Assembly: GCA_031292015.1 (NCBI GenBank)
Contig: JARLHY010000072.1
Coordinates: forward strand, 1-64,000
From: Negativicutes bacterium
Lineage (GTDB): Bacteria > Bacillota_C > Negativicutes > Sporomusales_B > JARLHX01
Direction: 5' to 3'
Length of the DNA stretch: 64,000 nucleotides
Part shown: positions 48,121-64,000 of the stretch, piece after piece
How the letters are laid out: the number at the start of each line of letters is the position of its first letter
How positions within the stretch are numbered: position 1 is the stretch's first letter
Notes under the pieces: model-generated
What the model was told of the DNA's origin: nothing
The model's input: only the letters and a program-made list of their open reading frames with translations
Database searches by the model: none
Made by a program: the position numbers and the translations under genes

Positions 48121-48552
48121 ATGTTTATGGGTGAATACTCCCACACAATAGACAATAAAGGGCGCCTCATCTTTCCAGCCAAGTTCCGTGATGAACTGGG
48201 CGAGAAGTTTATCGCCACCAAGGGTCTTGACAACTGCTTGTTCGTATACACCCAGGAAGAGTGGGCCATCCTAGAAAATAAGCTGAAGCAGCTGCCATTG
48301 GCCAAACCCGAGGCCCGGGCTTTCGTCCGGTTCTTCTTCGCCGGGGCGGCGGAGCTGGAGGCCGACAAACAGGGGCGGGTTTTGCTGCCCACCAACTTGA
48401 GGGAACACGCAAGGCTGGATAAAGATGTCATCGTCATCGGGGTTTCCAGCCGGATTGAAATATGGGGCAAAGAAGCCTGGGACGAATACAACAGCAAGAT
48501 TGGACCCGAGGTTACCAAGATTGCCGAGAATCTGGTCGATCTGGGAATCTAG
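48121..48552 (+). CDS. mraZ: Transcriptional regulator MraZ
   Basis: 143 residues with the duplicated SpoVT/AbrB-like fold: [26 protein letters not shown] and [22 protein letters not shown]. First gene of the division/cell-wall cluster, acting on its own promoter. ATG follows GGTGGTGAGGCC. Confidence 0.97.
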
Positions 48553-48567
48553 ACGGAGTGATCGTGC

Positions 48568-49500: not shown

Positions 49501-49542
49501 TCAGGGATGAATTTGTTCTAATTTCCAGGGAGGGAAAATACT

Positions 49543-49986
49543 ATGTTAGTAAACCGCCAGCAAGAGTGGGTCGAAGTTACGCCGCCGGAACGGGTCAGGA
49601 AGTCTGCCGCCGCATCGACGCGCCGGGACAACAGTCTCAGGCGTAAATGCCTGCAGCTCATCCTGCTTGTTGTCGCCGCGGCGATGATGGTCACCATTCA
49701 TAGTGAGATGTCGGTGCGGGCGGGTTATGACCTGGTCGACCTGAAGGAACAAGCTGCGAAACTGGAAAAAGAGAATGAATTGCTCCGCCTGGATATCGCC
49801 AGACTGAAATCGCCGGAGCGTATCCAACAGATCGCGATCCGCGATCTGGGTATGGTCCAGCCGAAAAATACTTATTACGCCACAACCAAACCGGAGTCGG
49901 GCCAACCGGACGCAGCGGTGGCAGGTAATCAGCCGGCCAAGGGTCTGGTCATTGTCAACAAGGCGGAGGCGAGTAAAGCGCGTTAA
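49543..49986 (+). CDS. ftsL: FtsL-like cell division protein
   Basis: 147 residues: basic N-terminus, one helix (LQLILLVVAAAMMVTIH), then a heptad coiled coil (LVDLKEQAAKLEKENELLRLDIARLKSPERIQQIAIRDLGM) typical of FtsL/septum initiators. Its place between rsmH and the PBP gene confirms the call. ATG has GGGAGGG upstream. Confidence 0.9.
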   Translation: MLVNRQQEWVEVTPPERVRKSAAASTRRDNSLRRKCLQLILLVVAAAMMVTIHSEMSVRAGYDLVDLKEQAAKLEKENELLRLDIARLKSPERIQQIAIRDLGMVQPKNTYYATTKPESGQPDAAVAGNQPAKGLVIVNKAEASKAR

Positions 49987-50009
49987 GTTTATTCAATGGA
50001 GGCGATCGC

Positions 50010-50435
50010 GTGGCGTCGGCTTCTCATGTCACTATTCGTAAAAGGGCAGCCCTGCTTTTTCTTTTTGTTGTGGTAGTCATGGTGGGACTCATCGGCCGGC
50101 TGGGGTATCTTCAGTTTTTCCGCAGTTCCTGGCTGACGGAGAACGCGATGGATCAGCGGATCAGGGAGATACCGGTGGAAGCCAGGCGGGGAATGATCTA
50201 CGACCGGACCGGCAGGGAGCTGGCGGTCAGTGTGAGCACCGAATCGGTGTACGCCATCCCTGCGGAAATAAGGAGTCCCGAGGAAACAGCAGCCAAACTG
50301 GCTGCTATTTTGGCATTATGGGCCATTTGGTGGGAGAGAATAAAAACAAACTCCTGCGATACCCGGCGAAGCGGTGTATCACAGGGGTTTTCTTCCGCTG
50401 GTGACGCTGCGGTTCTTTCGGGTAGGACCCGGTAG
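50010..50435 (+). CDS. Class B PBP (SpoVD/FtsI), N-terminal fragment split by the mobile element
   Basis: GTG start after GGAGGCGATCGC. Host-derived codons 1-103 give a cytoplasmic tail, a helix (LLFLFVVVVMVGLIGRLGYLQF) and the class B PBP start motif RRGMIYDRTGRELAVSVST. From 50319 onward the sequence belongs to the inserted element and the frame ends at 50435 after 39 foreign codons. The rest of the gene resumes at 63748 in the matching frame. In Bacillus this place holds pbpB then spoVD; many clostridia and Negativicutes have a single gene annotated spoVD. Which one it is depends on sequence past the window (a PASTA domain would favour SpoVD/PBP2b types). Confidence 0.9.
   Translation: MASASHVTIRKRAALLFLFVVVVMVGLIGRLGYLQFFRSSWLTENAMDQRIREIPVEARRGMIYDRTGRELAVSVSTESVYAIPAEIRSPEETAAKLAAILALWAIWWERIKTNSCDTRRSGVSQGFSSAGDAAVLSGRTR
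50305..50318 (+). repeat. attL core repeat
   Basis: CTATTTTGGCATTA, in frame as the end of LAAILAL of the PBP. Identical to 63748-63761; bases on either side differ (G versus T before, T versus G after). Confidence 0.9.
50353..50385 (-). terminator. Inverted repeat downstream of the integrase
   Basis: CCTGCGATAC (50353-50362) and GTATCACAGG (50376-50385), one mismatch. Read on the minus strand it is followed by AGTTTGTTTTTA, so it may end the integrase transcript; it may also be a recombinase-binding site. Confidence 0.5.
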
Positions 50436-50486
50436 CGGCCGGAGGGGGAGGCTGCCCTAAGCACCCGATAAACTCTTGTTGCGGCG

Positions 50487-51623
50487 CTAGGGGAGGAGTT
50501 TGGCGGCGATGAAGGCCGCCGCGTCCTTGTCCTTTTCCGGCAGGGCGTGGGCGTAAATCTGCATTACGGTACGGACGTCGTCGCCGATGCGGGCTGCGAC
50601 CATCTTGAGGTCGTAGCCGTGAGCCAGCAGGTGGGTGACATGGGTATGCCGCAGGTCGTGGAGCCGCACTTTTTTGGTTATGCCGGCCCGCACCAGCAGT
50701 GAACGGAAGGTCCGGCCCAGGGTCGAAAACGGAACCAGCCGCCGGTTGTCGCCGGTGAAAACCAGGCCGCCGTCAGGGGTCCACAGGTCGTTTCTGAGAA
50801 TTTCCAGGACCGCCGGTTCTACCGCTATGGTCCGCCACGACCCCTGGGTCTTGGGCGTGCCGCGAACTTGTTTGCCGGCGATCTCGACAATGTTCTCCGA
50901 CACTTTCAGCACACCGTTCGCCAGGTCGATATTCTCCCAGCGCAGGCCGACGATTTCACCCCGGCGCAGACCGGTGGACAGGGCGAGGAGGATAACATGG
51001 TAGATCTGCCTGAACCCTCTTTTGACTTCTGCAGCGAAGGCTCTGGCGGCTGCGAGCAGCCGCAGCATCTCGTCTTCGGTCAGGATATTTTGTTCTTTCG
51101 GCTGCCTGGGAATGGGTCCGGCCCCGGTGGCGGCGTTTCGACCGAGACAGCCCTCAGTCACCGCCAGGGCCAGAATGTTGTGCAGAATCGCCCGGTGCTG
51201 GCTCAGGGTGGCCGCGGACAGTCCCTCCTGGGCCTTGGCCCGCAGATAGTCGTTGACATGGGCTGTGGTCAGTTTCGTCAGCTTGCAGCGGCCGAGGAGC
51301 GGCAGGATATGCTTGACGCAGGCCAGCTCGTAAGCGGCGCAGGTCTTTTCTTTGGCGGTGAATTTCTTGATCGACAGCCACCTTGCGGTGAACTGTTCTA
51401 CGGTGGTACCGCCGGACAGGACCGGGCCCATGGTCTGATGGCCGGCTTTAAGCCTGTCGAGCATTGCAACAGCTTCCCGCTGGGTTTTGGCTGTGAAGGA
51501 TTTCCGGCGTTGCCTGCCGCTGGCGTCATAGCCCACAGTCACCTGAATTTTGAATTTATCCCTGGCCAGGCGCTGGAGCGAGCCATCACCCCTGGGCCGG
51601 CGTTTTTTCGGCGTTGTGGCCAA
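50487..51623 (-). CDS. int: Tyrosine recombinase / phage-type integrase
   Basis: 378 residues, TTG start with GGGGGAG upstream. N-terminal arm-binding domain (GDGSLQRLARDKFKIQVTVGYDASGRQRRKSF), SAM-like core-binding domain (TVEQFTARWLSIKKF), catalytic domain with Arg in STGLRRGEIVGL, HxxR in LHDLRHTHVTH and nucleophile Tyr357 in MQIYAHAL. A complete, probably active enzyme that would integrate and excise the element. It ends about 170 bp from attL. Confidence 0.95.
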   Translation of the reverse strand: MATTPKKRRPRGDGSLQRLARDKFKIQVTVGYDASGRQRRKSFTAKTQREAVAMLDRLKAGHQTMGPVLSGGTTVEQFTARWLSIKKFTAKEKTCAAYELACVKHILPLLGRCKLTKLTTAHVNDYLRAKAQEGLSAATLSQHRAILHNILALAVTEGCLGRNAATGAGPIPRQPKEQNILTEDEMLRLLAAARAFAAEVKRGFRQIYHVILLALSTGLRRGEIVGLRWENIDLANGVLKVSENIVEIAGKQVRGTPKTQGSWRTIAVEPAVLEILRNDLWTPDGGLVFTGDNRRLVPFSTLGRTFRSLLVRAGITKKVRLHDLRHTHVTHLLAHGYDLKMVAARIGDDVRTVMQIYAHALPEKDKDAAAFIAAKLLP

Positions 51624-51727
51624 AGCTATCTCCCCCTTATAGGAAAATGTACCGCCGGCGGAGGGGAATTAGAACCGGGCGGTCAAATGTTTCAGCCGCT
51701 GTCGCCGAACGCGGCTGGAGGAGAAGG

Positions 51728-51796
51728 ATGAAAGCGGCGCCGGGTGGAATAAAGCTTAAGGACAAAGATGGTTCGGGAACGGCGGTGACAGCGTGA
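51728..51796 (+). CDS. 22-codon leader ORF coupled to the activator gene
   Basis: ATG 51728 is preceded by GGAGGAGAAGG, a stronger ribosome site than the activator's own. It encodes MKAAPGGIKLKDKDGSGTAV.. and stops with TGA overlapping the activator's GTG (51793). The overlap suggests translational coupling. The peptide resembles nothing I know. Confidence 0.45.
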   Translation: MKAAPGGIKLKDKDGSGTAVTA

Positions 51797-53859
51797 AAGT
51801 CAAAGAGATCATGATTCCGGTCAGTCCGCTGGTTATGACCGGGAACGGCGGACCGACGGACAGTCCTTTGTCGGCCGGGAGCGATTTTCTGCCGGTGGTC
51901 GATGGTGAGGGGCGGTATATCGGTTCCATCGATCTTGTCGGCAGGACGCTCGAGAGCGGGGGCGCCGGGCAACCTGACGACATTTGGACCTTTCCGGCCC
52001 GGGATGTGGTCTGCGTTGCCGGCGACACCGACATCGACTCGCTGCCCAAGGATACCGCCAGGGCGGTGGTTGTCGATGAAACGGGCCGGGTTATCGGGAC
52101 AGTCGGACCGGTGGACTTTTTACGGACAGTGAGCCACAGCCTGGCCGAATTCAAGGAACAGTTATATGCGATCATCAATTCCGCCCAGAACGGCATCCTG
52201 GCCATCAATGACCGCGGGGTTCTCATCCTGGTCAACAATGCCGCCGAGGAGCTGACCGGCAAGAATAAGGACGAACTGATCGGCCGGCACGTCAGCGAAG
52301 TCATTCCCAACTCCCTTCTGCCTCAGGTTCTGGCGATGGAAAAGCCGCTGCTGGGTCAGAAAATTGGCCTTGGCGATACTGCTGTGATGGCCAACTATTC
52401 CCCGATCATCGCCAACGGCAAGGTTATCGGGGCGGTGTCGGTGTTTCAGGATGTGTCGATCCTGGAAAACACTTTTCAGGAACTGACCCAGGTCAAGACC
52501 CTCAGCAAGGAGCTGGAGGCGATCATCAATTCCTCCTATGACGGCATGTTCATAACCGACGGTCAGGGAGTGGTGCTCCGGGTCAACAAGGCTTATGAGC
52601 GCATTACCGGCATCAGGGCCGAGGAGGTCATCGGCAGGAGCATGCGGCGCCTGGTCGAGGAGAAGTACTACGATCAGTCGGTGACTCTGCTGGTGCTCGA
52701 GTCGAGGAAAAGCATGACCATCAATCAGACGGTGAAAGGCGACCGCAAATTACTTGTCACCGGTAACCCGATGTTCGACGATGCGGGTGAGATTGTCCGG
52801 GTGCTGACCAATGTGCGGGACGTAACCGAGCTTGTCAGGCTTCAGGACAAGCTGGCCAAAACCCAGGAGCAGACCCTGAAGTATAAGACTGAGCTGACCC
52901 ATCTGCGGTCGATGCAAATCAAGGAGGAGGATCTGGTCTACCGCAGCCAGGCGATGGCCCAGGCGGTAGAACTAGCCCTTAAAGTGGCCGAGGTGGATTC
53001 CACCGTCCTTATCACCGGTGAATCCGGCTCCGGCAAAGAACTGATCGCCAAGCTGATTCACAAGCACGGCAAAGGCGCGGGCACACCCTTCATCAAGATC
53101 AACTGCTCGGCCATACCGGACCAGTTGCTGGAGTCGGAATTGTTCGGCTACGAGGGAGGGGCGTTCACCGGGGCAAAAAAGGAGGGCAAGCCCGGTCTTT
53201 GTGAACTGGCCCATCATGGGACGCTGTTCCTGGATGAAATCGGCGACCTGCCGCTGCTGCTGCAGGCCAAAATACTGCGAACCATCCAGGAGAAAGAAGT
53301 TGTAAGAGTCGGCGGGACCAAGGCGATCAACGTGGACATCAGAATCGTCGCCGCGACGAACCGGGATATGACCGAGATGGTTAAGGCCGGAAAATTCCGG
53401 CAGGACCTGTATTACCGGCTGATGGTGGTTCCGATCCATCTGGCTCCGCTGCGGGAGCGGAAAGAGGATATTCCCCTCTTAAGCAAGTATTTTGTCGATA
53501 AGTTCAACAAGCGGTTTCGCTACAGCAAACGAATGGCGCCGGCGGTGGTTGACAAGCTGATGGAGTATTCCTGGCCAGGCAACGTCCGGGAACTGGAAAA
53601 TGTCATCGAGCGGATGATGGTTACCGCCGCCGGCAATGATCTGACTGAGGAGTTGCTGCCGGAAACGGTCCGCAAGAAGGTTTTTTTGCCGAAACAAGGG
53701 GCCAGGCTGAAGACTGCGGTAGAACAGACCGAGGCTTTTTTGCTGGCCGAAACCTACCGGGAGCATCCATCCTGGCCGAAGGTGGCGGAAATCCTGGGAG
53801 TGGACCGGGCGACGATTTTCCGCAAAGCCGCCAAGTACGGGCTGCTGAAAAAAACGTAA
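51793..53859 (+). CDS. CBS-PAS-PAS-AAA+-Fis sigma-54-dependent activator
   Basis: 688 residues, GTG start. N-terminal CBS-like pair (residues about 1-110), two PAS domains (about 118-225 and 235-345), AAA+ core with GESGSGKE, sigma-54 contact loop GGAFTGA, Walker B GTLFLDEIGDL, and a C-terminal Fis-type HTH (WPKVAEILGVDRATIFRKA). Cytoplasmic enhancer-binding protein. The consensus sigma-54 promoter at 54014 and TGCGAC repeats between this gene and the permease show its likely target: the cargo operon that follows. Confidence 0.93.
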   Translation: MKVKEIMIPVSPLVMTGNGGPTDSPLSAGSDFLPVVDGEGRYIGSIDLVGRTLESGGAGQPDDIWTFPARDVVCVAGDTDIDSLPKDTARAVVVDETGRVIGTVGPVDFLRTVSHSLAEFKEQLYAIINSAQNGILAINDRGVLILVNNAAEELTGKNKDELIGRHVSEVIPNSLLPQVLAMEKPLLGQKIGLGDTAVMANYSPIIANGKVIGAVSVFQDVSILENTFQELTQVKTLSKELEAIINSSYDGMFITDGQGVVLRVNKAYERITGIRAEEVIGRSMRRLVEEKYYDQSVTLLVLESRKSMTINQTVKGDRKLLVTGNPMFDDAGEIVRVLTNVRDVTELVRLQDKLAKTQEQTLKYKTELTHLRSMQIKEEDLVYRSQAMAQAVELALKVAEVDSTVLITGESGSGKELIAKLIHKHGKGAGTPFIKINCSAIPDQLLESELFGYEGGAFTGAKKEGKPGLCELAHHGTLFLDEIGDLPLLLQAKILRTIQEKEVVRVGGTKAINVDIRIVAATNRDMTEMVKAGKFRQDLYYRLMVVPIHLAPLRERKEDIPLLSKYFVDKFNKRFRYSKRMAPAVVDKLMEYSWPGNVRELENVIERMMVTAAGNDLTEELLPETVRKKVFLPKQGARLKTAVEQTEAFLLAETYREHPSWPKVAEILGVDRATIFRKAAKYGLLKKT

Positions 53860-53884
53860 CGCAAGTCTCAATATTGCGATTGAT

Positions 53885-54047
53885 GCAAAAATGCGACTAG
53901 CCGCGGAAAAACAGGTTAAAATAGTTTTTTGAATTATCTGAATGTCGCATTTGTGCGACGGAAAAATACTGCCCGAAAGAGAAGCCTTGAAGTAAATCAA
54001 GGCTTCTTTCTGTTGGCACGAAATTTGCAAGTAAGTACAAATGCGAC
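53885..54047 (+). promoter_or_regulatory. Putative upstream activator sites (TGCGAC repeats)
   Basis: ATGCGAC at 53891, a perfect palindrome GTCGCA-TTTG-TGCGAC at 53944-53959, and ATGCGAC again at 54041; a related TTGCGA lies at about 53875. They lie in the 270-bp gap around the sigma-54 promoter and are plausible binding sites of the adjacent activator. Confidence 0.6.
54014..54029 (+). promoter_or_regulatory. Sigma-54 (-24/-12) promoter of the cargo operon
   Basis: TGGCAC-GAAAT-TTGCA matches the consensus exactly, about 100 nt upstream of the permease gene. Confidence 0.92.
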
Positions 54048-54129
54048 AATGCCGGGGAGGAGGGAAAAAATCAGCTTTCGCTAAGGGACGACGCAGGAAA
54101 ATCCAAATCAAACTGGAAAGGATGTTACT

Positions 54130-55545
54130 ATGAGCTTGTTAGGACCGGTTTATAAGCGCGAATATGGCAAGGAGCAACCGTATATTCCTTTTGGTCCGTT
54201 TCATCTGAGGATTCCCTTCATCCACTATCGGTTTGAGCTGCCTGACTTTATCCAAGGTCTTATCATGTGCGCCGTCTGCCTGGGAATTATTCCGATATTG
54301 CAAGAATATCTCGGCATGTCCTTTGAAGTTGCCATTACCATTGTCATACTGAACGGTTTTTTCTATCTGTGGCACGCCCACCTGGGCGACCCGGTGGTGC
54401 CTGGTTGGATCACGCCGGCCATTCCGCTTCTCCTGCTGTGGCTGAAGACCTTTCCTGAAGGGGTGGCCAGGATGCATGCCCTGATCGCCTTTGAATTCGA
54501 GTTGGGCGTGTTTTCTCTGCTGCTGGGCTCGACCGGCCTGGCCAAACGTTTCGTCGACCTTGTTCCTGACGCCTTAAAGGCCGGCATTCTGCTGGGGGCC
54601 GGTATCGCGGCGGTCCGGCTTGTGTTTCAGCCAGGCGGACGCTTTGACCTCTATCCCTGGACCATCACCATTGCCATCGGTTTTGCCTTTTACATCCTTT
54701 TCTCTAACCATTTCAAGACTCTGCGCAACAGGAACATGGCGCTCAAGCACCTGTCGGATCTGGGGCTGATGCCGGCGCTGGTGCTGGCCATCTTCGTGGC
54801 GCCGCTGGTCGGCGAGTTGCCCTGGCCCACCATCCAGTGGGGCTTTACCGTTCCGCAGTTTTATACTTTGTTCACTGAGTGGACGCCTTTTTCGGCCCGG
54901 ATCGGTTTTCCGCCGCTGGAGCTTTACATGAAGGCGGCTCCGCTGGTGGTGGCTGTGTATATCGTGCTGTTCGGCGAATTGATCCAGGCCGAGGCGCTGA
55001 TTGACGAAGCCCGCGAATTCCGGCACGGCGATGAGGACGTTCATTTCAACGCCAACCGCAACAACATGATTGTCGGCATCCGTAATATCGGCATGTCGAT
55101 GATGGGCCCCGACGCTTCGATGTGCGGCCCGATGTGGGCAGCCATGCAGGTGGTGGAGTGCGAGCGCTACAAGCACGGCCCGGAAGCCATGGACAGCCTG
55201 GTGGGCGGTGTGGCGTCCTTCCGGCTGGGGACCTTTGTCAGCTATTTCATACTGCCTATCGTCACGCTGGTCAAGCCTATCCTGCCGATTTCCCTGGCGC
55301 TCACCATGCTGGTCCAGGGCTATGTCGCAGTCCGGGTAGGCGTCCTGAAAGCCAGGACCTTCAATGACCTCGGCGTCGCCGGCATTGTTGCCGCGGTGCT
55401 GATTACCCGCGAGGCGGCGGCGGCTTTCGGCGTAGGCATCATTCTGTGTCTTTTGATCTACGGCAAGGATATTTTCCGCAACTGGAGCACCTATGACAAA
55501 AGCAAGGACCCGGTGTTCAACAGCCGCATCAGCGACTCGGAGTAG
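54130..55545 (+). CDS. Multi-helix permease, NCS2/SLC23-like (substrate unknown)
   Basis: 471 residues with about 12-14 hydrophobic segments. The fold pattern (repeated ALKAGILLGAGIAAVRLVF and late MGPDASMCGPMWAAMQVVE with a broken helix) resembles the xanthine/uracil/SulP-type carriers, but I do not recognise a specific subfamily. ATG has GGAAAGGATGTTACT upstream. First gene after the sigma-54 promoter and directly before 4-hydroxybutyryl-CoA dehydratase, so uptake of 4-hydroxybutyrate or a similar acid is a reasonable guess only. Confidence 0.6.
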   Translation: MSLLGPVYKREYGKEQPYIPFGPFHLRIPFIHYRFELPDFIQGLIMCAVCLGIIPILQEYLGMSFEVAITIVILNGFFYLWHAHLGDPVVPGWITPAIPLLLLWLKTFPEGVARMHALIAFEFELGVFSLLLGSTGLAKRFVDLVPDALKAGILLGAGIAAVRLVFQPGGRFDLYPWTITIAIGFAFYILFSNHFKTLRNRNMALKHLSDLGLMPALVLAIFVAPLVGELPWPTIQWGFTVPQFYTLFTEWTPFSARIGFPPLELYMKAAPLVVAVYIVLFGELIQAEALIDEAREFRHGDEDVHFNANRNNMIVGIRNIGMSMMGPDASMCGPMWAAMQVVECERYKHGPEAMDSLVGGVASFRLGTFVSYFILPIVTLVKPILPISLALTMLVQGYVAVRVGVLKARTFNDLGVAGIVAAVLITREAAAAFGVGIILCLLIYGKDIFRNWSTYDKSKDPVFNSRISDSE

Positions 55546-55609
55546 CTTTTCCGCGCTTGTCTCTTTGCTGGCAGGTAGCTTATTTAAATTCTAAGGAGTG
55601 TGGTTCCAA

Positions 55610-57094
55610 ATGGCTCTTAAAACCGGACAACAGTATGAAGACAGTCTGCGCAAACTCAAATTCAAGGTATATCTGCAAGGCGAACTGGTGGAGAATCCGG
55701 TGGATCATCCGATCATCCGTCCGTCGATGAATTCGGTAAAGATGACGTACGATCTGGCCCAGGATCCCGAGTTCGAGGATCTCATGACCGCCAAGTCCCA
55801 TCTTGACGGCCAGAAGGTTAACCGCTTCTGCCATCTGCACCAGAGCACCGACGACCTGGTGAAAAAGGTGAAAATGCAGCGCCTGCTCGGACAGAAAACC
55901 GCATCCTGCTTCCAGCGGTGCGTCGGCATGGACGCCATCAACGCCGTGGACAGCGTTACCTTTGAAATGGACAAAAAACTTGCCACCAACTATCACGACC
56001 GGTTCCTCAAATTCCTGAAAATGATGCAGGATGAGGATCTGACGGTGGACGGAGCCATGACCGACCCCAAAGGCGACCGGAGCCTGCCGCCCCATAAGCA
56101 GCCCGACCCGGACCTCTTCGTCCATGTGGTGGAAAAACGCGACGACGGTATCGTCGTCCGCGGCGCCAAAGCCCACCAGACCGGGGCCATCAATTCCCAC
56201 TGGATTCTGGTCATGCCCACCATCGCCATGAGCAAGGAAGATGCCGATTACGCCGTATCGTTCTGCGCCCCGGCCGACGCCGAGGGGATCTTCTACATTT
56301 ACGGCCGCCAGTCCTGCGACACCCGCAAGCTGGAAGGCAGCGAACTTGATGTCGGCAACTGCCAGTTCGGCGGCCACGAAGCCCTGATGGTCTTCGACAA
56401 TCTCTTCATTCCCTGGGAGAATGTCTTCATGTGCGGCGAATACGAATTCAGCGGCGCGCTGGTGGAACGCTTCGCGGGTTATCACCGGCAGAGCTACGGC
56501 GGCTGCAAGGTCGGCGTGGGCGACGTGCTGATCGGCGCCGCGGCGCTGGCGGCCGACTATAACGGCGCAAACAAGGCCTCCCATGTCAAAGACAAACTGA
56601 TCGAGATGGTTCATTTGAACGAGACACTTTATTCCTCCGGCATCGCCTGTTCGGCCGAGGGTTCGAAAACTGCTTCCGGGACCTATCTGATCGATCTTTT
56701 ACTGGCCAATGTCTGCAAACAGAACGTGACCCGCTTCCCCTACGAGATCACCCGGCTGGCGGAAGACATCGCCGGTGGGCTGATGGTCACCATGCCGTCC
56801 GAGAAGGACCTGCGCCATCCGGAAATCGGCAAAGTAGTGGAAAAGTATTTCGGCGCCGTCTCCTCGGTTCCCACCGAGCATCGGATGCGGATCCTGCGGC
56901 TGATCGAGAACCTCACTCTGGGCACGGCGGCTGTCGGCTACCGCACCGAGTCGATGCACGGCGCCGGCTCGCCTCAGGCTCAGCGGATCATGATTGCCCG
57001 CCAGGGTAATATTGAGCAGAAGAAAGAACTGGCCAAAGCCATCGCCGGTATCCCCGATGCGGCAGCGGCAAAAGAGGCTGCGGCTTCCAAGTAA
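55610..57094 (+). CDS. abfD: 4-hydroxybutyryl-CoA dehydratase / vinylacetyl-CoA delta-isomerase
   Basis: 494 residues, HpaB/AbfD flavoprotein family. The [4Fe-4S] ligands that separate true AbfD from HpaB hydroxylases are present: Cys100 and Cys104 (ASCFQRCVG) and His293 and Cys300 (YHRQSYGGCKVG), matching C99/C103/H292/C299 of the Clostridium aminobutyricum enzyme. It dehydrates 4-hydroxybutyryl-CoA to crotonyl-CoA through a ketyl radical. ATG 55610 with AAGGAG 13 nt upstream; GTG 55598 is too close to that site. Confidence 0.93.
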   Translation: MALKTGQQYEDSLRKLKFKVYLQGELVENPVDHPIIRPSMNSVKMTYDLAQDPEFEDLMTAKSHLDGQKVNRFCHLHQSTDDLVKKVKMQRLLGQKTASCFQRCVGMDAINAVDSVTFEMDKKLATNYHDRFLKFLKMMQDEDLTVDGAMTDPKGDRSLPPHKQPDPDLFVHVVEKRDDGIVVRGAKAHQTGAINSHWILVMPTIAMSKEDADYAVSFCAPADAEGIFYIYGRQSCDTRKLEGSELDVGNCQFGGHEALMVFDNLFIPWENVFMCGEYEFSGALVERFAGYHRQSYGGCKVGVGDVLIGAAALAADYNGANKASHVKDKLIEMVHLNETLYSSGIACSAEGSKTASGTYLIDLLLANVCKQNVTRFPYEITRLAEDIAGGLMVTMPSEKDLRHPEIGKVVEKYFGAVSSVPTEHRMRILRLIENLTLGTAAVGYRTESMHGAGSPQAQRIMIARQGNIEQKKELAKAIAGIPDAAAAKEAAASK

Positions 57095-57118
57095 CAGCAC
57101 CATTTGAGATGTCGACAT

Positions 57119-57146
57119 GTCGCCGGAGCTTATCAGCTCCGGCGAC
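57119..57146 (+). other. Strong intercistronic hairpin between abfD and the CoA-transferase
   Basis: Perfect 12-bp stem GTCGCCGGAGCT (57119-57130) / AGCTCCGGCGAC (57135-57146), loop TATC, no T-run. It may stabilise the upstream mRNA or lower downstream expression. Confidence 0.7.
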
Positions 57147-57186
57147 CCATTGGTCTTGAAGACTTGGCGGAAGGTGAGGAATTAGT

Positions 57187-58481
57187 TTGAGCCAGTGGCA
57201 AAGCAAGGTTAAGAATAAGCTGGTATCGGCTGCCGAGGCGGTGCAAAGGATAAAATCCGGCGACAGGGTAGTCACCGGCCACGCATGCGGCGAGCCGGCG
57301 GCGCTGATCGACGCCATGGTGGCAAGGGCCCCGGAGCTTGAAGCGGTGGAAGTCGTCCATATGGTGGCGATGGGGCAGGCCAAATATGCTCAGCCGGGTA
57401 TGGAGCGGAGCTTCCGCCACAACGCCCTTTTCGTGGGGGCGTCCACCCGCAAAGCCCTGGAGGAAAAGCGGGCCGACTACACGCCCTGCTTTTTTTCGGA
57501 AATACCGCGGTTGTTTCAAAGCAAAATCCTGCCGGTCAACGTCGCCCTGATTCAGGTAACACCGCCGGATGAAGAGGGCTATGTCAGTTTCGGGGTGTCG
57601 GTGGACTACACTCAGGTGGCGGCGGAGTGCGCCGACCTGGTCATTGCCCAGGTGAACCCCCTTTTGCCGCGTACCGGCGGGGCTAAAATCCATCTGGATG
57701 ATATAGACTATATCGTGGAAGAAGAGCAGCCTGTCATCGAGCTGAAGCCGCCGCAGATCGGCGATGTCGAGAAAGCCATCGGCGAAAACGCGGCCAGCCT
57801 CATTCCCGACGGCGCCACCCTGCAGCTGGGTATCGGCGCCATTCCCGACGCCGTGCTGCTGTTTTTGCGGAACAAGAAAGACCTCGGGATCCATTCGGAG
57901 ATGTTTTCCGACGGCGTTGTGAGCTGGCCGAGGCCGGAGTGATCACCAACCGGAAAAAGACCATCAATCCCGGGAAATTCATGGCTACTTTCCTGATGGG
58001 GACCCGCAAGCTGTACGATTTCGTTGACAACAACCCGAGTGTCGAGCTGCACCCTGTGACCTATATCAACGATCCTTACGTCATCGGCCAGCATGACAAT
58101 ATGATTTCCATCAATTCGGCCCTGCAGGTCGATCTGATGGGGCAGGTGAACGCCGAGATGATCGGTTCCCGTCAGTTCAGCGGCATCGGCGGCCAGGTCG
58201 ATTTCATCCGGGGCGCCAGCCGGTCCCGCGGGGGTAAGTCGATCATCGCCCTGCCTTCCACCGCCTCAGGGGGAAAGATTTCGCGGATCTGCCTGGAACT
58301 TGACCGGGGCGCCGGAGTATCGACTTCACGCAACGATGTGCACTATGTAGTCACCGAGTATGGCGTGGCGGACCTCAGGGGCAAGAGCCTGCGTCAGCGG
58401 GCCGCAGCCCTGATCGCCATCAGCCACCCGGATTTTCGGGAGAAGCTGACCGCCGAGGCCAAGGAGAAAGGCCTGCTGTAA
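57187..58481 (+). pseudogene. 4-hydroxybutyrate CoA-transferase, frameshifted
   Basis: The acetyl-CoA hydrolase/transferase family is clear: SGDRVVTGHACGEPAALIDAM, LQLGIGAIPDAVL and catalytic Glu in IHSEMFSDGVV in the first frame (57187-57942), then ITNRKKTINPGKFMATFLMGTRKLYDF and YGVADLRGKSLRQRA in the second (57939-58481). Expected codons GTG-GAG-CTG read GTG-AGCTG: one G is missing at about 57920. Restoring it joins 431 residues without interruption. TTG start 57187. It would activate 4-hydroxybutyrate for AbfD. The break may be real decay or an assembly error. Confidence 0.85.
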
Positions 58482-58553
58482 CAAAACAAGACCCGCTGCC
58501 GATGGAAGCCTGGTGGAAACGAAATCTGGCGAAAGCGCCCGGAGGGTTGATCT

Positions 58554-59210
58554 ATGCCGGTCCTTACCTTTATGCATGATCTTTTTTCCTTTGCCCGCGG
58601 ATCATACGAGCGGATCGTCGGCCGCCATACCCGGCGTTTTTGCAGCCGGGCGGCGCAAAAGGCCAAAAACGACGCCCAGAAGAGGCTGCTGCTGGTGGCG
58701 GCGGTGTGTGCCGACGAGCTGCTTGCCGCGATCTTCGGGGTGAGCGAAAAAAGCCGCGGGAGCGGGCTCTCTGCCGCGGTCCCGGCCGGAGCCGACAAGA
58801 CAAAGGTGCGGGAGGCGATGCGGATTTATCTGTCCGCCCTTCTGATCCGGCTGGGCAGCGGCAAAACGCTGCTGCTGGAGAAGACCGGTGTTGGCGAAGA
58901 GGACTTTCTGCGGCTGTGGTGTCAGGTTTTCGAGTATCAGCCGGCCGACATGTTGCATTTTGACCAGGAACTCGGGCCGGCTTACCAGAGCAATGGTGAG
59001 GCAGAGCTGGCCGCCGCCGCTGCCGGCCTTATCTGCAGCCAGCTTTTTGGCAGCGTGGACGGCATCGAGACCGCCTGGCTCCAAGAGCGGCTGGCGGACG
59101 ATGCGGCGGCGATGATCCGCGTCCTTGAGACGCTGGGAGGGAGGGATGAATTGTGTTCTCCATCGACCGGGAAGCCTGTGAATACATCAAGAAAAGGACC
59201 GGGGCGGTAG
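58554..59210 (+). CDS. Unknown helical protein next to the selenoprotein gene
   Basis: 218 residues, ATG with GGAGGG upstream. Not recognised. It is mostly helical and Ala/Leu-rich, with scattered Cys (RFCSRAA, VCADELL, LWCQVFEY, LICSQL) and no signal peptide or membrane helix. The last 19 codons overlap the selenoprotein gene in another frame, and the residues after about 198 (SPSTGKPVNTSRKGPGR) look like low-constraint read-out of the overlap. Close packing suggests joint function with the selenoprotein. Confidence 0.6.
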   Translation: MPVLTFMHDLFSFARGSYERIVGRHTRRFCSRAAQKAKNDAQKRLLLVAAVCADELLAAIFGVSEKSRGSGLSAAVPAGADKTKVREAMRIYLSALLIRLGSGKTLLLEKTGVGEEDFLRLWCQVFEYQPADMLHFDQELGPAYQSNGEAELAAAAAGLICSQLFGSVDGIETAWLQERLADDAAAMIRVLETLGGRDELCSPSTGKPVNTSRKGPGR

Positions 59211-59488
59211 TAATCGCCATGACGCTGGAACCGGCCATCGGCGGCTGAGCCTGCTCAAACAAACGCGTAACAGGTAGTTACGTACCGGGTATTTCGCTGG
59301 GAGAACCGGCGCAGGAGGAAAAAGACCGTTATCTGAGTACCATCGTCGACGGAGTCACGGTGTATCATTCGTCCACCGTCGGGGTCAAGACCGGGTTTTC
59401 CGCTGTCCGGATCCGGCTGCGCAAGCTGCTTTTTTGGGGCTGGCTTGAACTGGAAGGGGCGAAAGCAGTTCCGGTCACGCAGGAATAA
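59153..59488 (+). CDS. Small selenoprotein with UGA-encoded Sec32 (CC/Se-motif-like)
   Basis: GTG 59153 lies about 7 nt after GGGAGGGAGGG. The frame reads FSIDREACEYIKKRTGAVVIAM..EPAIGG, meets TGA at 59246-59248 (codon 32), and stays open for 79 more codons to TAA at 59486, ending RIRLRKLLFWGWLELEGAKA. Reading TGA as selenocysteine gives 111 residues with the redox-type motif GG-U-A-C. A SECIS-like hairpin stands 16 nt after the UGA. The N-terminal half resembles small HesB-like / CC/Se-motif (seleno)proteins as I remember them. Conventional ORF calling breaks it. Function unknown; a redox or metal role is likely for the family. Confidence 0.78.
59265..59283 (+). promoter_or_regulatory. Bacterial SECIS-like hairpin
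   Basis: GCGTAAC (59265-59271) pairs with GTTACGT (59277-59283, outer pair G-U); apical loop AGGTA carries the GGU that SelB-bound SECIS loops use. The stem begins 16 nt after the UGA, within the normal bacterial range. Confidence 0.75.
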
Positions 59489-59893
59489 ACAAGAAGGAAC
59501 AGGCAATCTCAGCCAATGGCGCCTGTCTAAGTGCTTGCATCGCGGCCGAAGCGTCGTGTTCCCGATTATCCACAACGCCGCCGGCACTTTTGCGGCCTCG
59601 CGGGTTAAGGGCGGATTAACTTTCTGCAGGAATATTTTGTCCATAACCGAAAAGGAGCACCATCAAGGTGCTCCTTTTTCATGTCCATGCCAGTGGATGC
59701 GGCAGGAGAAGAGCCTGACGCGACGTAATAGTAGTAGTATTGTACATACCAGAACCAGCTGAAAACAGCGTATCGAAAACGGATGCAGGCGCTGCGTGCC
59801 TTTGAATTGTCTCCTGTTGCTCGTATTGATTATATTAATCATACCGTTACCGTGAATGGATAAAAATAGCGTATCGAAAACGGAGGGGTGTTT
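59489..59893. promoter_or_regulatory. 405-bp gap upstream of the PLP enzyme
   Basis: Holds a terminator (59651-59681), two copies of AGCGTATCGAAAACGGA (59767-59783 and 59868-59884, 101 bp apart, the second covering the ribosome site of the next gene) and a palindrome TGATTA-TAT-TAATCA (59827-59841). These look like regulatory sites for the gene at 59894. No gene is seen. Confidence 0.55.
59651..59681 (+). terminator. Terminator of the selenoprotein/abfD operon
   Basis: AAAGGAGCACC (59651-59661) / GGTGCTCCTTT (59667-59677), loop ATCAA, then TT; A-run precedes, so it could work in both directions. Confidence 0.85.
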
Positions 59894-61258
59894 ATGGCCA
59901 AGATTCCTTTCGGTCCTACTTATGACGAAATGCTCAACCCTGCCGCCGTTGCCGGCGAAGTTCGGGCAAAAGCGCTGCAGGCGCTTCAAGAAAACGAACT
60001 CGACCCTGTCAACTTGTTCAATATTACCTGGAAAAACGAAGCCGATCAGGTGCGCAAGGTGGTTTTGCCGCCGGAACTCACCGGGGTGTACGCCAATGTC
60101 GTTGTGTTGCTGGGGTATGGCTTTCCCTCCGGGTCCCACAAGGTCGGACCGGCCTACAGCACTTTGATCGAAGGACTGGTGGACGGCGAAATCATTCCCG
60201 GCGAGCACACCATTCTCGGCCCTTCCACAGGCAACTTCGGCATCGGCACCGCCTATATATCAAAGCTCCTCGGCTTTAAGGCCGTGGTCATCATGCCTGA
60301 CAACATGAGTAAGGAGCGCTACGAGCGGATCCGCAAGTACGGCGGTGTGCTGGAACTGACCCCCGGCTCGGAGTCGGATGTCATTCTGACTTTGGAACGG
60401 ACCCATGAGATGATGAAAAATCCCAAGAACAAGGCTCTGGCGCAGTTCGAGCTGTTTCCCAACTACCGCTTCCACCGCCACGTTACCGGCAACAGCGCCA
60501 TCGAAGCGGTGCGGGGCGTTGGCAACGGCCGTATTGCCGGCTTCACCTCGGCGCCGGGTTCGGCGGGTACCCTTGCTGCCGGTGATCAGATCAAGGCTCT
60601 GTTCCCGGAAGCGAAGATCGCCGCCCTGGAACCGTATGAATGCTCTACCCTGGCCACCGGCGGCCGGGGCCAGCACCGCATCGAGGGCATCGGCGACAAG
60701 ATGTGCACCCTGATTCACAATGTTCTGGCCACTGATTTTGTCATATTAATTAAGGATGAAGAAACGGTGCAGGGACTCAAAATCTTCCGGGATGGCGTGG
60801 AAAGTCTGGTACGGCTGGGGCTGGACCGGGACTTCGCCCTGGCTCTCAGGGACTGTTTCGGGCCGTCAGGCATCGGCAATGTGCTGGGGGCTATCAAGCT
60901 GGCTAAATTCCTGCGGCTCGGGCCTGGCGACAATGTCGTGACTGTGGCCACCGACGGTTTCGACCGCTACCAATCGGTGCTGGAGGAGCTGGACTGCCGC
61001 TATCTGGAGACGGCGCCCTTTGTCCTGGACCGCTGGGCCAACGACATCTTCCTGGGCGCGAAGGACGATGCGGTCTACGACTTCCGCCGGCCCTCCGTCA
61101 AGGAGCAGTTGTTCCGGCAAAAGGAGAGCGACTGGCTGAAGTTCGGTTATTCCCAGCAGTTTCTGGACTCGATGCGGGATCAGTCCTTCTGGGAAAACGA
61201 GTACGCCAAGGTGCCGCATTATAATAAGAAGATCGCCGAGATGCGCTCAGACCGTTGA
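59894..61258 (+). CDS. Fold-type II PLP enzyme, cysteine synthase-like
   Basis: 454 residues from ATG 59894 (GGAGGGG upstream). FPSGSHKVGPAY carries the PLP Lys, GPSTGNFGIGTAYISKLLGFKAVVIMPDNMSKERYERIRKYGG resembles cysteine synthase/threonine dehydratase, and SAPGSAGTLAAGD is the phosphate loop. About 100 residues longer than CysK, with a distinct C-terminus (LFRQKESDWLKFGYSQQFLDSM). Product unknown; likely acts on a hydroxy- or amino-substituted C3/C4 amino acid. The following serine dehydratase genes are on the other strand. Its stop TGA lies in the family A repeat. Confidence 0.75.
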   Translation: MAKIPFGPTYDEMLNPAAVAGEVRAKALQALQENELDPVNLFNITWKNEADQVRKVVLPPELTGVYANVVVLLGYGFPSGSHKVGPAYSTLIEGLVDGEIIPGEHTILGPSTGNFGIGTAYISKLLGFKAVVIMPDNMSKERYERIRKYGGVLELTPGSESDVILTLERTHEMMKNPKNKALAQFELFPNYRFHRHVTGNSAIEAVRGVGNGRIAGFTSAPGSAGTLAAGDQIKALFPEAKIAALEPYECSTLATGGRGQHRIEGIGDKMCTLIHNVLATDFVILIKDEETVQGLKIFRDGVESLVRLGLDRDFALALRDCFGPSGIGNVLGAIKLAKFLRLGPGDNVVTVATDGFDRYQSVLEELDCRYLETAPFVLDRWANDIFLGAKDDAVYDFRRPSVKEQLFRQKESDWLKFGYSQQFLDSMRDQSFWENEYAKVPHYNKKIAEMRSDR

Positions 61259-61485
61259 TAACCCCCCACCTGCTTTGCACCCGCAGGGGGCAGGCCGCAT
61301 TTCTAAGCGCTGAAGCGCAAGAACTACGCACTTGGCCCCGCAAACCTATTGCTAGCGTACAACCGGTACGCGCGATGCTGTTAAATCAGCCAGTGCAAAC
61401 CCTTATGCTTAAAGAGTTCTCGGAGGAAACGGTGCTGCGGTTCGCGGGGCCGTCGTGCATCTGGGGGGGGCTGAACGGCCTGAGG
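61252..61485 (+). repeat. Palindromic intergenic repeat, family A, copy 2
   Basis: Shares with 35590-35713 the outer CCGTTGATAA-CCCCC and CTGAACGGCCTGAGG ends and the inner GGCCCCGCAA, ATTGCTAGCGTAC, GTACGCG and GCGGGGCCGTCGTGCATCTGGGG blocks. It is about 110 bp longer than copy 1 through inserted sequence. It starts inside the last codons of the PLP gene. The rest of the 453-bp gap (to 61711) holds no gene, only this repeat and the sdaAA terminator. Confidence 0.75.
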
Positions 61486-61636
61486 GTTTGGTTTATTAAG
61501 AAGTTGTTTCGACTTTCTTTTTCGGGCATAACGAGGAATCATAATGTTGAGTATAGGCAGGACCGCAAAAGTGATCGGCAGTGGCGCGGCGTTGCCGGAT
61601 TTTTTTCGACTAGTATACCTGATGGTTTTTGGCAAG

Positions 61637-61682
61637 AAAAATACCTCGTAGAGTAGTCTTAATACTATCTCAACGAGGTATT
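61637..61682 (-). terminator. Terminator of the serine dehydratase operon
   Basis: On the minus strand AATACCTCGT and ACGAGGTATT form a 10-bp stem with a 23-nt loop, followed by TTTCTT. Confidence 0.75.
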
Positions 61683-61711
61683 ATTTATGATGTAAGAACA
61701 GCGCCGTTCTT

Positions 61712-62599
61712 CTACGCCTGTTTCCCGGCGAGGATGCGTTCGGTGATTTTTTGAGCGGTGGGGGTTTTGGCAAGGCCGCCTTCTGAGGTTTCCCGCAGGG
61801 CCTTGGGCATGGACAGCCCGATCTGGTGCATGGCGGCGATGACCTCATCGGCGGGGATGACGCTCTGGATACCGGCCATGGCCATCTCGGCGGCCACCAG
61901 GGCGTGGACGGCCCCGAAGGCATTGCGCTTGACGCAGGGAATTTCCACCAGACCGGCCACTGGATCGCAGACCAGGCCCAGCATGTTTTTCAGGGACAGG
62001 GCGACGGCTTCGCCGCTTTGCTGGGGCGTTCCGCCGGCCATTTCCACGATGGCGCCGGCGGCCATCGCCGCCGCCGAACCGCATTCGGCCTGGCAGCCGC
62101 CGTAGGCGCCGGAAATCGAGGCATTTTCGGCGATGACCAGACCGATCACCGCGGCGGTAAACAGGCCGCGAATGAGGGCCGGATCGTCAAAGTGAAAGAA
62201 TTCCGCCGCCGCCAGCATCGCTCCCGGCAGAATGCCGCAGGAACCGGCGGTGGGGCAGGCTACGATCCGGCCCATGCAGGCATTGAGTTCGTTTACCGCC
62301 ATGGCGTAGGCGGCAGCCCTGGCGGCCACCGGCCCGGCGAGGCAGACGGGAGAGTCCGCCCGGGAGATCAGGCGGGCGGCGTCACCGCCGACCAGGCCAC
62401 TGAAGGATTTTTCCTGCTGGGTCAGGCCCGTCTGGACCGACTCTCGCATCACCGTCAGGCTGGCTGCCATGTTGTCCCACACTGCCTGGGGCGAAGCGTC
62501 GCTTCGTTCGGTCTCCCAGCGCCAGCCGATTTCGGACAGCGGGATGGCCATTTCTTGGCTGATGGCCAGAAGATCGCTGATATGATTAAATTTGAACAT
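61712..62599 (-). CDS. sdaAA: L-serine dehydratase, iron-sulfur-dependent, alpha subunit
   Basis: 295 residues. Cluster-binding and catalytic segments VACPTAGSCGILPGAM, GGCQAECGSAAAMAA and GLVCDPVAGLVEIPCVKRNA carry the conserved Cys of the [4Fe-4S] enzyme that deaminates L-serine to pyruvate. ATG after GGAGGCGAAAGAAT. Thirteen nt after the beta subunit. Confidence 0.95.
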   Translation of the reverse strand: MFKFNHISDLLAISQEMAIPLSEIGWRWETERSDASPQAVWDNMAASLTVMRESVQTGLTQQEKSFSGLVGGDAARLISRADSPVCLAGPVAARAAAYAMAVNELNACMGRIVACPTAGSCGILPGAMLAAAEFFHFDDPALIRGLFTAAVIGLVIAENASISGAYGGCQAECGSAAAMAAGAIVEMAGGTPQQSGEAVALSLKNMLGLVCDPVAGLVEIPCVKRNAFGAVHALVAAEMAMAGIQSVIPADEVIAAMHQIGLSMPKALRETSEGGLAKTPTAQKITERILAGKQA

Positions 62600-62612
62600 A
62601 TTCTTTCGCCTC

Positions 62613-63275
62613 CTACAGCGGTGGAATCATCAGGGCCGTATCGATGGAGGGTGCGGTGCGTATCGACTGCAGGCATTCGATCGCTATCGGCTGGTCGGCT
62701 TCGATGACGGCCAGAGCCTGAGAACCCCTCTGCCGGCGGGAGACCCGCATGAAAGCGATGTTGACGTTGTTGGCGGCCAAAATGCTGCTGATCATCGCCA
62801 CGACGCCCGGCTTATCCTGATGGATGGAAATGAGGGTATGGTATTCTCCCGTCAATTCTACGGCGAAGTCATCGATTTTGGTGATGACGATATTGCCGCC
62901 TCCCACTGATGCTCCGACGATCCTGACTTTCTTGCCGGAGACTCCGGTCAGTCGGATAATCGCGGTGTTGGGGTGGGCGTCCCCCAGGTCCACCGGCGTA
63001 AAGCTGACCGCCAGTCCCTGCTGGCAGGCGGTTTCGAGGGAATCCCTGATCCGGATGTCGTCCGGAAGGTAGCCGAGCAGCCCGGCGGCGAGGGCTTTGT
63101 CGGTGCCATGGCCGCGATAGGTCTGGGCAAAGGAACCGTGGAGCTCAATGGCGGCGGCCACCGGCTGCTCGCCCAGAATAATCCGCGCCATCTTGCCCAG
63201 CCGGACGGCGCCTGCGGTATGGGAACTGGACGGTCCGATCATAACCGGCCCGATGATGTCGAAAATCCCTGGCAT
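62613..63275 (-). CDS. sdaAB: L-serine dehydratase, iron-sulfur-dependent, beta subunit
   Basis: 220 residues: IIGPVMIGPSSSHTAGAVRLG start, RGHGTDKALAAGLLGY, and a C-terminal ACT domain (HTLISIHQDKPGVVAMISSILAANNVNIAFM) that normally senses serine. ATG 63275 is 9 nt after GGGAG. The frame is open to 63719 but that extension reaches the excisionase region and lacks family similarity. Confidence 0.95.
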   Translation of the reverse strand: MPGIFDIIGPVMIGPSSSHTAGAVRLGKMARIILGEQPVAAAIELHGSFAQTYRGHGTDKALAAGLLGYLPDDIRIRDSLETACQQGLAVSFTPVDLGDAHPNTAIIRLTGVSGKKVRIVGASVGGGNIVITKIDDFAVELTGEYHTLISIHQDKPGVVAMISSILAANNVNIAFMRVSRRQRGSQALAVIEADQPIAIECLQSIRTAPSIDTALMIPPL

Positions 63276-63314
63276 CCGGATCATCTCCCATAATAATCTT
63301 CCCTGCTCTGCCGA

Positions 63315-63328
63315 GTGAAATGGTTCAC
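63315..63328. promoter_or_regulatory. Palindrome upstream of sdaAB
   Basis: GTGAA-ATGG-TTCAC, 40 nt upstream of the sdaAB start; a candidate operator in the 186-bp gap between sdaAB and the divergent excisionase gene. Confidence 0.4.
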
Positions 63329-63461
63329 GCTCTGGTCTGACTATCAAGATTCGTCGCCTGCTTTGCAGATACCTGCCCCGGGGCAGCAGCCGGAATCGTC
63401 GATAATCCTCCGGGCCGGCGAATAAATATGTAGTGAAGTTCGGCGAGAGTGGGGTGAGACG

Positions 63462-63650
63462 GTGGAAAGCCCGGTGATGACGGTGCAGGAGGCGGCCGAG
63501 TACCTTAAAGTGTCGACAGATACGGTTTATGTCCTTGTTCGCGCCCAGACCTTTCCGGCGATAAAAATTGGCAACAGTTGGCGAATTTTGAGGAAGGAAT
63601 TGGACGAATGGATGAGAAAGCAGTATAATGAAAAACCGGAGAACCTTTAA
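63462..63650 (+). CDS. xis: Excisionase-family small HTH protein
   Basis: 62 residues, GTG with GGGGTGAG upstream. TVQEAAEYLKVSTDTVYVLVRAQTFPAIKIGNSWRILRKELDEWM is the MerR-like HTH_17 excisionase domain. It ends 98 bp before attR, with two TAAGCACT boxes just downstream. It would act with the integrase to favour excision, so its control decides when the PBP gene is rebuilt. Confidence 0.88.
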   Translation: MESPVMTVQEAAEYLKVSTDTVYVLVRAQTFPAIKIGNSWRILRKELDEWMRKQYNEKPENL

Positions 63651-63657
63651 AAAACGG

Positions 63658-63675
63658 TAAGCACTTTTAAGCACT
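63658..63675 (+). repeat. Putative recombinase arm sites
   Basis: TAAGCACT at 63658-63665 and 63668-63675, 10 bp apart. A matching TAAGCACC lies at 50458-50465 near the other end, between attL and the integrase gene. Confidence 0.5.
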
Positions 63676-63747
63676 CGCCGGCTCGGCGGGGGGCTTCGCG
63701 AAGGAGATTTCTCCGGCATTTTCAGTGGTTGGCGGCGAAAGCGGCCT

Positions 63748-63761
63748 CTATTTTGGCATTA
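63748..63761 (+). repeat. attR core repeat
   Basis: CTATTTTGGCATTA, identical to attL. The similarity to attL extends in degenerate form upstream: 24 of 30 bases agree between 50289-50318 and 63732-63761, encoding AAKLAAILAL and AAKAASILAL. Confidence 0.9.
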
Positions 63762-64000
63762 GATGCCAGCGAGCTTGCGAATAAACTGAAGCGGCGCCAG
63801 GCCTTTACCTGGATCAAACGCAAAGTTGACGAGCCGGCCGCGCTGGCGGTAAAGAAGCTCAATCTGCCGGGGATCGGGATTACCCAGGAAAGCCGCCGAC
63901 AATATCCTTACGACACTCTGGCGGCCCACATGCTGGGATTCACCGGTATTGACAGCCAGGGGCTGGATGGCGTGGAGCTGACCTTCGACAGCTATCTGAA
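63748..64000 (+). CDS. Class B PBP (SpoVD/FtsI), continuation after the element; 3' end outside window
   Basis: From attR the frame reads LDASELANKLKRRQAFTW.. then LPGIGITQESRRQYPYDTLAAHMLGFTG and GLDGVELTFDSYL, the dimerisation/pedestal domain of class B PBPs. Upstream of attR the frame is open to 63651, with no ATG or GTG and only a TTG (63729) 22 nt from an AAGGAG, so it is probably not translated unless the element leaves. Transpeptidase motifs lie beyond the window. Confidence 0.9.

Follow-up and report, generated by a model that had tools for sequence, protein, structure and literature searches.

A spoVD gene split by a tyrosine-recombinase element in a Negativicutes bacterium: a possible sporulation-linked rearrangement

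Introduction

Several sporulation genes, namely sigK, spsM, spoVFB, spoVR and gerE, are split by inserted elements (PMC5595907, PMC6957869), and, as far as the accessible portions of the cited reports go, the described elements use serine recombinases (PMC5595907, PMC6957869, PMC10747680) and the rearrangements come from Bacilli and Clostridia. Here we analyze a 64,000-bp stretch of DNA from a Negativicutes bacterium (hereafter the window; positions 1 to 64,000 of contig JARLHY010000072.1, assembly GCA_031292015.1), in which spoVD, a gene for a class B penicillin-binding protein (PBP), is split by a 13,443-bp element carrying genes for a tyrosine recombinase (int) and an excisionase-like protein (xis). 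We lean, with modest confidence, towards a mobile island that its own integrase (Int) and excisionase (Xis) would excise as the cell sporulates, the mother cell being the most likely place, restoring SpoVD for the cortex.

The gin element in gerE of Bacillus cereus ATCC10987 resembles the spoVD element in being non-phage, in lying in a sporulation gene with a short repeat (9 bp in gin) and in carrying its own recombinase and directionality factor, and its excision rejoins gerE; it differs in having three serine recombinases and a length of 28.6 kb, whereas the spoVD element has a tyrosine recombinase, a helix-turn-helix (HTH) excisionase, a Negativicutes-like host and an excision that is predicted (available text of PMC5595907). 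The yin element in yabG likewise has a 14-bp repeat, a recombinase gene beside the 5' part and a candidate directionality factor, but it occupies another gene in another class, and its resolvase and recombinase Pfam domains are read as those of a serine-type enzyme (PMC10747680). In the nifD/hupL-type elements of heterocyst-forming cyanobacteria a developmental gene is split, as here, although the developmental product is a heterocyst and not a spore, and the xis genes counted there comprise 48 serine and 52 tyrosine recombinases (PMC4874684). In skin the recombinase gene directly follows the 5' gene part, which is also the arrangement of the spoVD element (PMC10747680). Both skin, in sigK of B. 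subtilis and C. difficile, and SPbeta, in spsM, split a sporulation gene as the spoVD element does, but they encode serine recombinases, are prophages or prophage remnants and have been demonstrated to excise, whereas excision of the spoVD element is predicted.

Tyrosine-integrase phages and genomic islands of the lambda type carry int and xis at their ends, together with core repeats and arm-type repeats. The spoVD element has the same layout, with int and xis at its ends and core as well as arm-type-like repeats; the lambda-type target, however, is a tRNA gene or a gene end that is rebuilt on insertion, while here an internal site of a protein-coding gene is broken. With skin-type elements it has in common the split frame of a sporulation gene, repeats that restore that frame and, by family assignment, its own recombinase and directionality factor. 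Its recombinase belongs to the tyrosine family (PF00589) and not to the serine recombinases, and because of this type we class the element as one that would work like skin rather than as a member of the described group.

Results

The 14-bp sequence CTATTTTGGCATTA occurs on the forward strand in two identical copies, at 50305-50318 (attL core) and 63748-63761 (attR core), with no third copy on either strand of the window, and the spacing of the two, 13,443 bp, is divisible by three. The 5' part of spoVD (50010-50318, forward strand; codons 1-103; TIGR02214 E 2.1e-19 on the fragment) remains true to its family, and alignable to intact homologues, for 103 codons before the frame enters foreign DNA, where it continues to a stop at 50435; the 3' part resumes on the same strand at 63762 and leaves the window at 64000. 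When the flanks were joined in silico, the resulting 182 aa aligned end to end and without gaps to the intact genes of L041 (78% identity), L001 (77%) and L002 (79%), and, gap-free over 180 aa, to that of L005 (66%), these loci stemming from Selenomonadales, Bacillota and Negativicutes metagenome-assembled genomes (MAGs). Given these four gap-free alignments, we consider the empty site to be real in related species. The repeats and the frame-restoring deletion of 13,443 bp that the first-pass annotation had described are thus borne out, and the uninterrupted gene which it proposed to look for in relatives is present in all four. That the split is an assembly artefact or the product of a chimeric contig is hardly credible, given that the N-fragment with its element tail is found on six contigs and the integrase on three, that related split genes occur on other contigs and that the repeat, at 14 bp, is rather short to cause a mis-join.

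A search with the window's distal residues retrieved P0147, an intact frame of 593 aa on an 82,110-bp contig, which is the size of the longest contig likewise given for the window's integrase and N-fragment. P0147, with which the 3' part continues, contains the PBP-dimer, transpeptidase and PASTA domains and by itself scores 677 bits against TIGR02214. The first-pass annotation had held that stop codons in the distal gene past the window would make this a simple gene inactivation; P0147 is open throughout, so that decay of the distal half beyond the window is ruled out. Further, among the 120 of 200 protein matches listed, all nine C-fragments of 593-611 aa (own included, and with the near-identical P0253 and P0255 counted as one lineage) retain the catalytic motifs STFK, SCN and KTGT. 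Three of the nine, P0212, P0163 and P0150, begin at or near the core, their upstream DNA lying out of view.

Position in the dcw cluster, TIGR02214 scores, a tree and co-occurrence with spoIVA together support the identification of the split gene as spoVD and not as the division PBP. Upstream of it on the forward strand (48121-49986) are three open reading frames which, from gene order and sequence, we take to be mraZ (48121-48552), rsmH (48568-49500) and ftsL (49543-49986). Of the genomes reached via the four loci, G001 (via L001), G002 (L041) and G004 (L005) each encode a pair of close class B PBPs, only one of which lies in the dcw cluster, while in G003 (L002; 1.8 Mb and probably a partial MAG) only the dcw PBP and no separate FtsI-type protein was seen. 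An FtsI-type PBP distinct from the dcw protein was thus present in three of these four genomes, so the split gene need not be required for vegetative division. Against TIGR02214, with a cut-off of 688, the dcw protein of G002 scored 704 bits and the shorter, PASTA-less dcw protein of G004 654, as compared to 550-563 for the three second PBPs tested. In a 23-row tree the window's C-part (P0147) clustered with the dcw SpoVDs of the class (support 99/99); the second PBPs grouped (100/99) with the FtsI-type PBP that Veillonella, Selenomonas, Megasphaera and related non-spore-formers possess.

Across 380 genomes of the class the dcw-type gene, called from matches of at least 59% identity, was present in 52, spoIVA in 51 and both in 48; in other words, the gene occurs in 48 of the 51 spoIVA-bearing genomes vs. 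4 of the 329 others. In one of the three spoIVA-bearing genomes without a match, G082, the gene's distal part lies at the end of a contig; no close spoVD copy was found in the other two. The TIGR02214 scores, the spoIVA co-occurrence and the tree rule out an FtsI identity and uphold the suggestion of the first-pass annotation, which it had made conditionally, that the gene is the sporulation PBP. The assignment by spoIVA co-occurrence also agrees with PMC10693644, in the accessible part of which the SpoVD and SpoVE encoded in the dcw cluster serve sporulation, with FtsW and FtsI apparently retained in Negativicutes too. The frame was open through the insertion site in all 52 reference genomes carrying the gene (500-731 aa).

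The int gene (50487-51623, reverse strand; 378 aa) matches PF00589 (E 4.6e-23), PF14659 and phrog_1, has relatives of 41-80% identity (P0002-P0021) and lies 168 bp inside the left core. At the opposite end of the element, the xis-like gene (63462-63650, forward strand) encodes a 62-aa HTH protein of the excisionase family (TIGR01764, PF12728, phrog_66), 64% like a frame adjoining int in phage record L191, and ends 97 bp before the right core, each gene being read towards its own core. These profile matches are in accord with the complete tyrosine recombinase and excisionase-like gene noticed at the element ends in the first pass. The catalytic set of tyrosine recombinases is R, K, H-x-x-R, H/W and Y, and the residue of the Gly-His pair is part of the active site. 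In Int the residues R220, K258, H322, R325 and Y357 are present, and at the H/W position 12 of 15 aligned integrases have GDD. Two direct repeats of AGTGCTTA (at 63658 and 63668; 63658-63675, reverse strand) lie in the stretch that separates xis from the right core, and on the left GTGCTTA (50458-50464, reverse strand) has seven of its eight bases; the 8-mer is also found in pairs near int in phage records L190, L191 and L192, and we regard these repeats as putative arm-type sites of the integrase. Excisionase, core repeats and arm-type-like repeats would then all be present, as in lambda-type elements.

Judged by their sequence, int and xis are intact. This, together with the fact that nothing was found tying either gene to a stage, would also suit stochastic excision, in which the element drops out of a small share of cells at whatever time and sporulation is open to these cells only; it would then restrain sporulation instead of timing it. 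We consider this improbable, as excised cells would transmit empty sites and no same-species empty site appears among the matches listed, although the latter point is a weak one.

With the SpoVD N-part as query, 26 short SpoVD proteins were retrieved, ten of which (own included) end or diverge at codon 103. Some of the 26 may be contig ends; we reject this as the explanation for all of them. Another seven fit neither this break nor the following pattern. Nine proteins (P0132-P0134, P0136-P0141) stop 5-11 codons later, several with a common NIVRK-like tail, and these perhaps mark a second element type at a neighbouring break.

Five N-fragments share their longest-contig size with five integrases (1973, 3105, 5761, 91162 and 141591 bp), and two C-fragments, from the matches listed, do so with two more (10722 and 165013 bp), which makes seven pairs besides the window. 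From these equal sizes, most strongly from that of the 1,973-bp contig, we infer that relatives of the integrase adjoin split spoVD genes. P0019, the integrase of the 165,013-bp pair, is 46% like the window's and letter for letter the integrase of IMG/VR record L190, an 18.6-kb sequence whose end coincides exactly with CTATTTTGGCGTTA, which differs from the window's core at one base, and which encodes a helicase, a primase, an exonuclease, a single-stranded-DNA-binding protein and an anti-repressor. Since L190 ends there and carries phage genes, the spoVD site appears to be used by both a phage and a metabolic island. Integrase divergence was correlated with SpoVD divergence (r 0.70, reached in 25 of 720 permutations) over six lineages, some compared over partial sequences. 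In records L191 (5499-7110) and L192 (10001-11498), int and an xis-like frame converge on a stretch with paired AGTGCTTA that looks like an attP; neither record yielded the spoVD core. The window's integrase had a match in 311 of the 380 genomes (41% identity at best), and the 30 loci returned for these more distant integrases gave no SpoVD match within the approx. 1.5 kb of flank taken where the contig allowed. A search of IMG/VR for SpoVD fragments by two peptide patterns matched no stretch.

The attL core overlaps a dyad in the host's spoVD, AGCAGCCA-AAC-TGGCTGCT followed by ATTTT (50288-50311, forward strand), whose synonymous sites are conserved among spore-forming Negativicutes. The exact string AGCAGCCANNNTGGCTGCTATTTT occurs in 42 of the 380 genomes, once in each and every time at the SpoVD place (42 of the 52 carriers). 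Codons 93-100, which encode AGCAGCCA-N3-TGGCTGCT-ATTTT, have a mean synonymous entropy of 0.34 bits over seven conserved codons vs. 1.44 for the other 53 (49 sequences after two duplicates were dropped; P 5e-5, a value that ignores relatedness). GCAGCC-N5-GGCTGC is kept in 46 of the 49 sequences and, also in 46 of 49, no more than 5% of 200 synonymous recodings reach the same folding stability; the remaining three have altered letters and still form a hairpin, which 19-23 of 200 recodings match in stability, so that in these the hairpin could be due to chance. The conservation of letters in 46 sequences suits a sequence-specific binder, and the refolding in the other three suits a structure; a terminator, an operator and a translation pause are candidate roles. 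Within loci L001-L080 the dyad occurs in spoVD, with at most one mismatch, only in the four Negativicutes relatives, L002 having one additional near-match elsewhere, and an Rfam scan over 49500-64000 gave no match. The conserved hairpin may explain the integrases' choice of site.

Between int and xis the element carries cargo with a catabolic character. On the forward strand it encodes a PAS/sigma-54-activator regulator (51793-53859; PF00158, PF00989), a 471-aa protein that looks permease-like by eye and matched no family (54130-55545), a member of the 4-hydroxybutyryl-coenzyme A (CoA) dehydratase/vinylacetyl-CoA isomerase family (55598-57094; best solved relative 1u8v_A, E 6.3e-236; HpaB families), a CoA-transferase (57187-58481), a 218-aa protein without a family match (58554-59210) and a pyridoxal-phosphate enzyme of the cysteine-synthase fold family (59888-61258; TIGR01136 E 1.1e-35, below the cut-off; cysteine synthases in PDB). 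The CoA-transferase is spread over two overlapping frames, 57187-57942 and 57939-58481, covering positions 3-251 and 259-436 of TIGR03948, and looks frameshifted or mis-sequenced. On the reverse strand (61712-63278) lie the alpha (61712-62599) and beta (62613-63278) parts of an L-serine dehydratase, matching TIGR00718 and TIGR00719, both above cut-off. None of the ten cargo frames received a structural or phage-replication call from PHROGs, the AAA domain of the sigma-54 activator giving a weak match to a clamp-loader profile (E 1e-4) and some frames matching PHROGs of unknown function; two cargo proteins match no family. In its cargo the element therefore shows none of the structural and replication genes by which a prophage is recognized. 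Because its G+C range of 52-62% overlaps the 52-57% of the preceding 4 kb, it does not stand out by composition. Elsewhere in the window, 27455-28756 matches, above cut-off, the NCBIfam model for group 22 of the nickel-pincer-cofactor-dependent isomerases.

Considering this cargo, which includes no gene seen that would time excision, and the phage record with a related integrase, the element could be an ordinary integrative one with a preferred attB in spoVD that excises only for its own transfer, leaves its carrier cortexless while integrated and follows no developmental timing. Such an explanation is also suggested by the lack of an excised form among the protein matches listed and of any sporulation promoter that stood out before int or xis, and by ICEBs1, which at a secondary site in B. 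subtilis spoVD, where it was obtained experimentally, showed no detectable excision (available text of PMC3715440). On the other hand, the distal motifs are kept in all nine C-fragments among the matches listed, the correlated divergence of integrase and SpoVD hints at residence over fresh insertion, and several insertions in sporulation genes do excise in sporulation (PMC5595907, PMC6957869, PMC10747680). We therefore treat an ordinary element as a serious but less probable explanation, which we would not expect to hold.

Discussion

The preservation of the motifs in nine of nine distal halves (among the matches listed), the recurrence of the split, the correlation in divergence and the precedent of other sporulation elements support the reading in which spoVD is rebuilt by excision timed to sporulation. 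In the mechanism that we propose, Int would make the insertion, and Int together with Xis would reverse it. Like skin, SPbeta and gin, the element would be excised in cells that are sporulating, with the mother cell as the most likely place, and full-length SpoVD would appear only at the time of cortex synthesis; the activity of Int and Xis, the excision itself and its timing to sporulation are all inferred. In B. subtilis, lack of SpoVD results in cortexless spores (PMC3906833). As a sporulation gene, spoVD could be split at little cost to growth, which would likely tolerate this with a separate FtsI carrying out division, and the spore genome would keep the element and so pass it on.

Several observations weigh against excision timed to sporulation. 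It assumes that the window's own host forms spores, and among described species the split state is uncommon, all 52 reference genomes that have the gene being uninterrupted at the site. Neither a joined junction, nor a circle, nor an intact allele from the same species was found, there being no intact gene of at least 90% identity among the 120 of 200 protein matches listed; the best intact SpoVDs in these matches are 83-84% identical over the scored part. The catalytic Gly-His is replaced by Gly-Asp-Asp in most of the aligned integrases (12 of 15), the window's included, and the P0006 integrase is, by eye, frame-changed, though its contig appears to hold a split spoVD. Sporulation-sigma promoter motifs scored no better before int and xis than in shuffled sequence. 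Finally, in the tree the SpoVD of the class joins neither dcw PBP of two Bacilli, which pair together (93/93), and for this reason the case for orthology between classes is made by TIGR02214 and gene position.

The first-pass annotation knew of no described case in this gene. As regards natural elements this stands, none being described in the open-access literature that was searched, with few subscription papers covered; the experimental ICEBs1 insertion (PMC3715440) means that it does not stand for insertions of every kind. More tentatively than the excision of this one element, we suggest that in spore-forming Negativicutes spoVD is a recurrent docking site for a whole clade of tyrosine-integrase elements that ranges from phages to catabolic islands; each of these would leave in the mother cell and rebuild SpoVD, at a site possibly made available by a conserved hairpin with a function of its own. 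A tyrosine recombinase with Xis would then, for the first time, be driving a rearrangement in sporulation.

Against the serine-recombinase rearrangements of Bacilli and Clostridia in the cited work, such a system, if real, would mean that hiding in a gene needed only by the doomed mother cell arose with unrelated recombinases, and that a single site links a phage and a catabolic island. The hairpin within spoVD represents a separate lead, on a function at the DNA or RNA level inside a spore gene.

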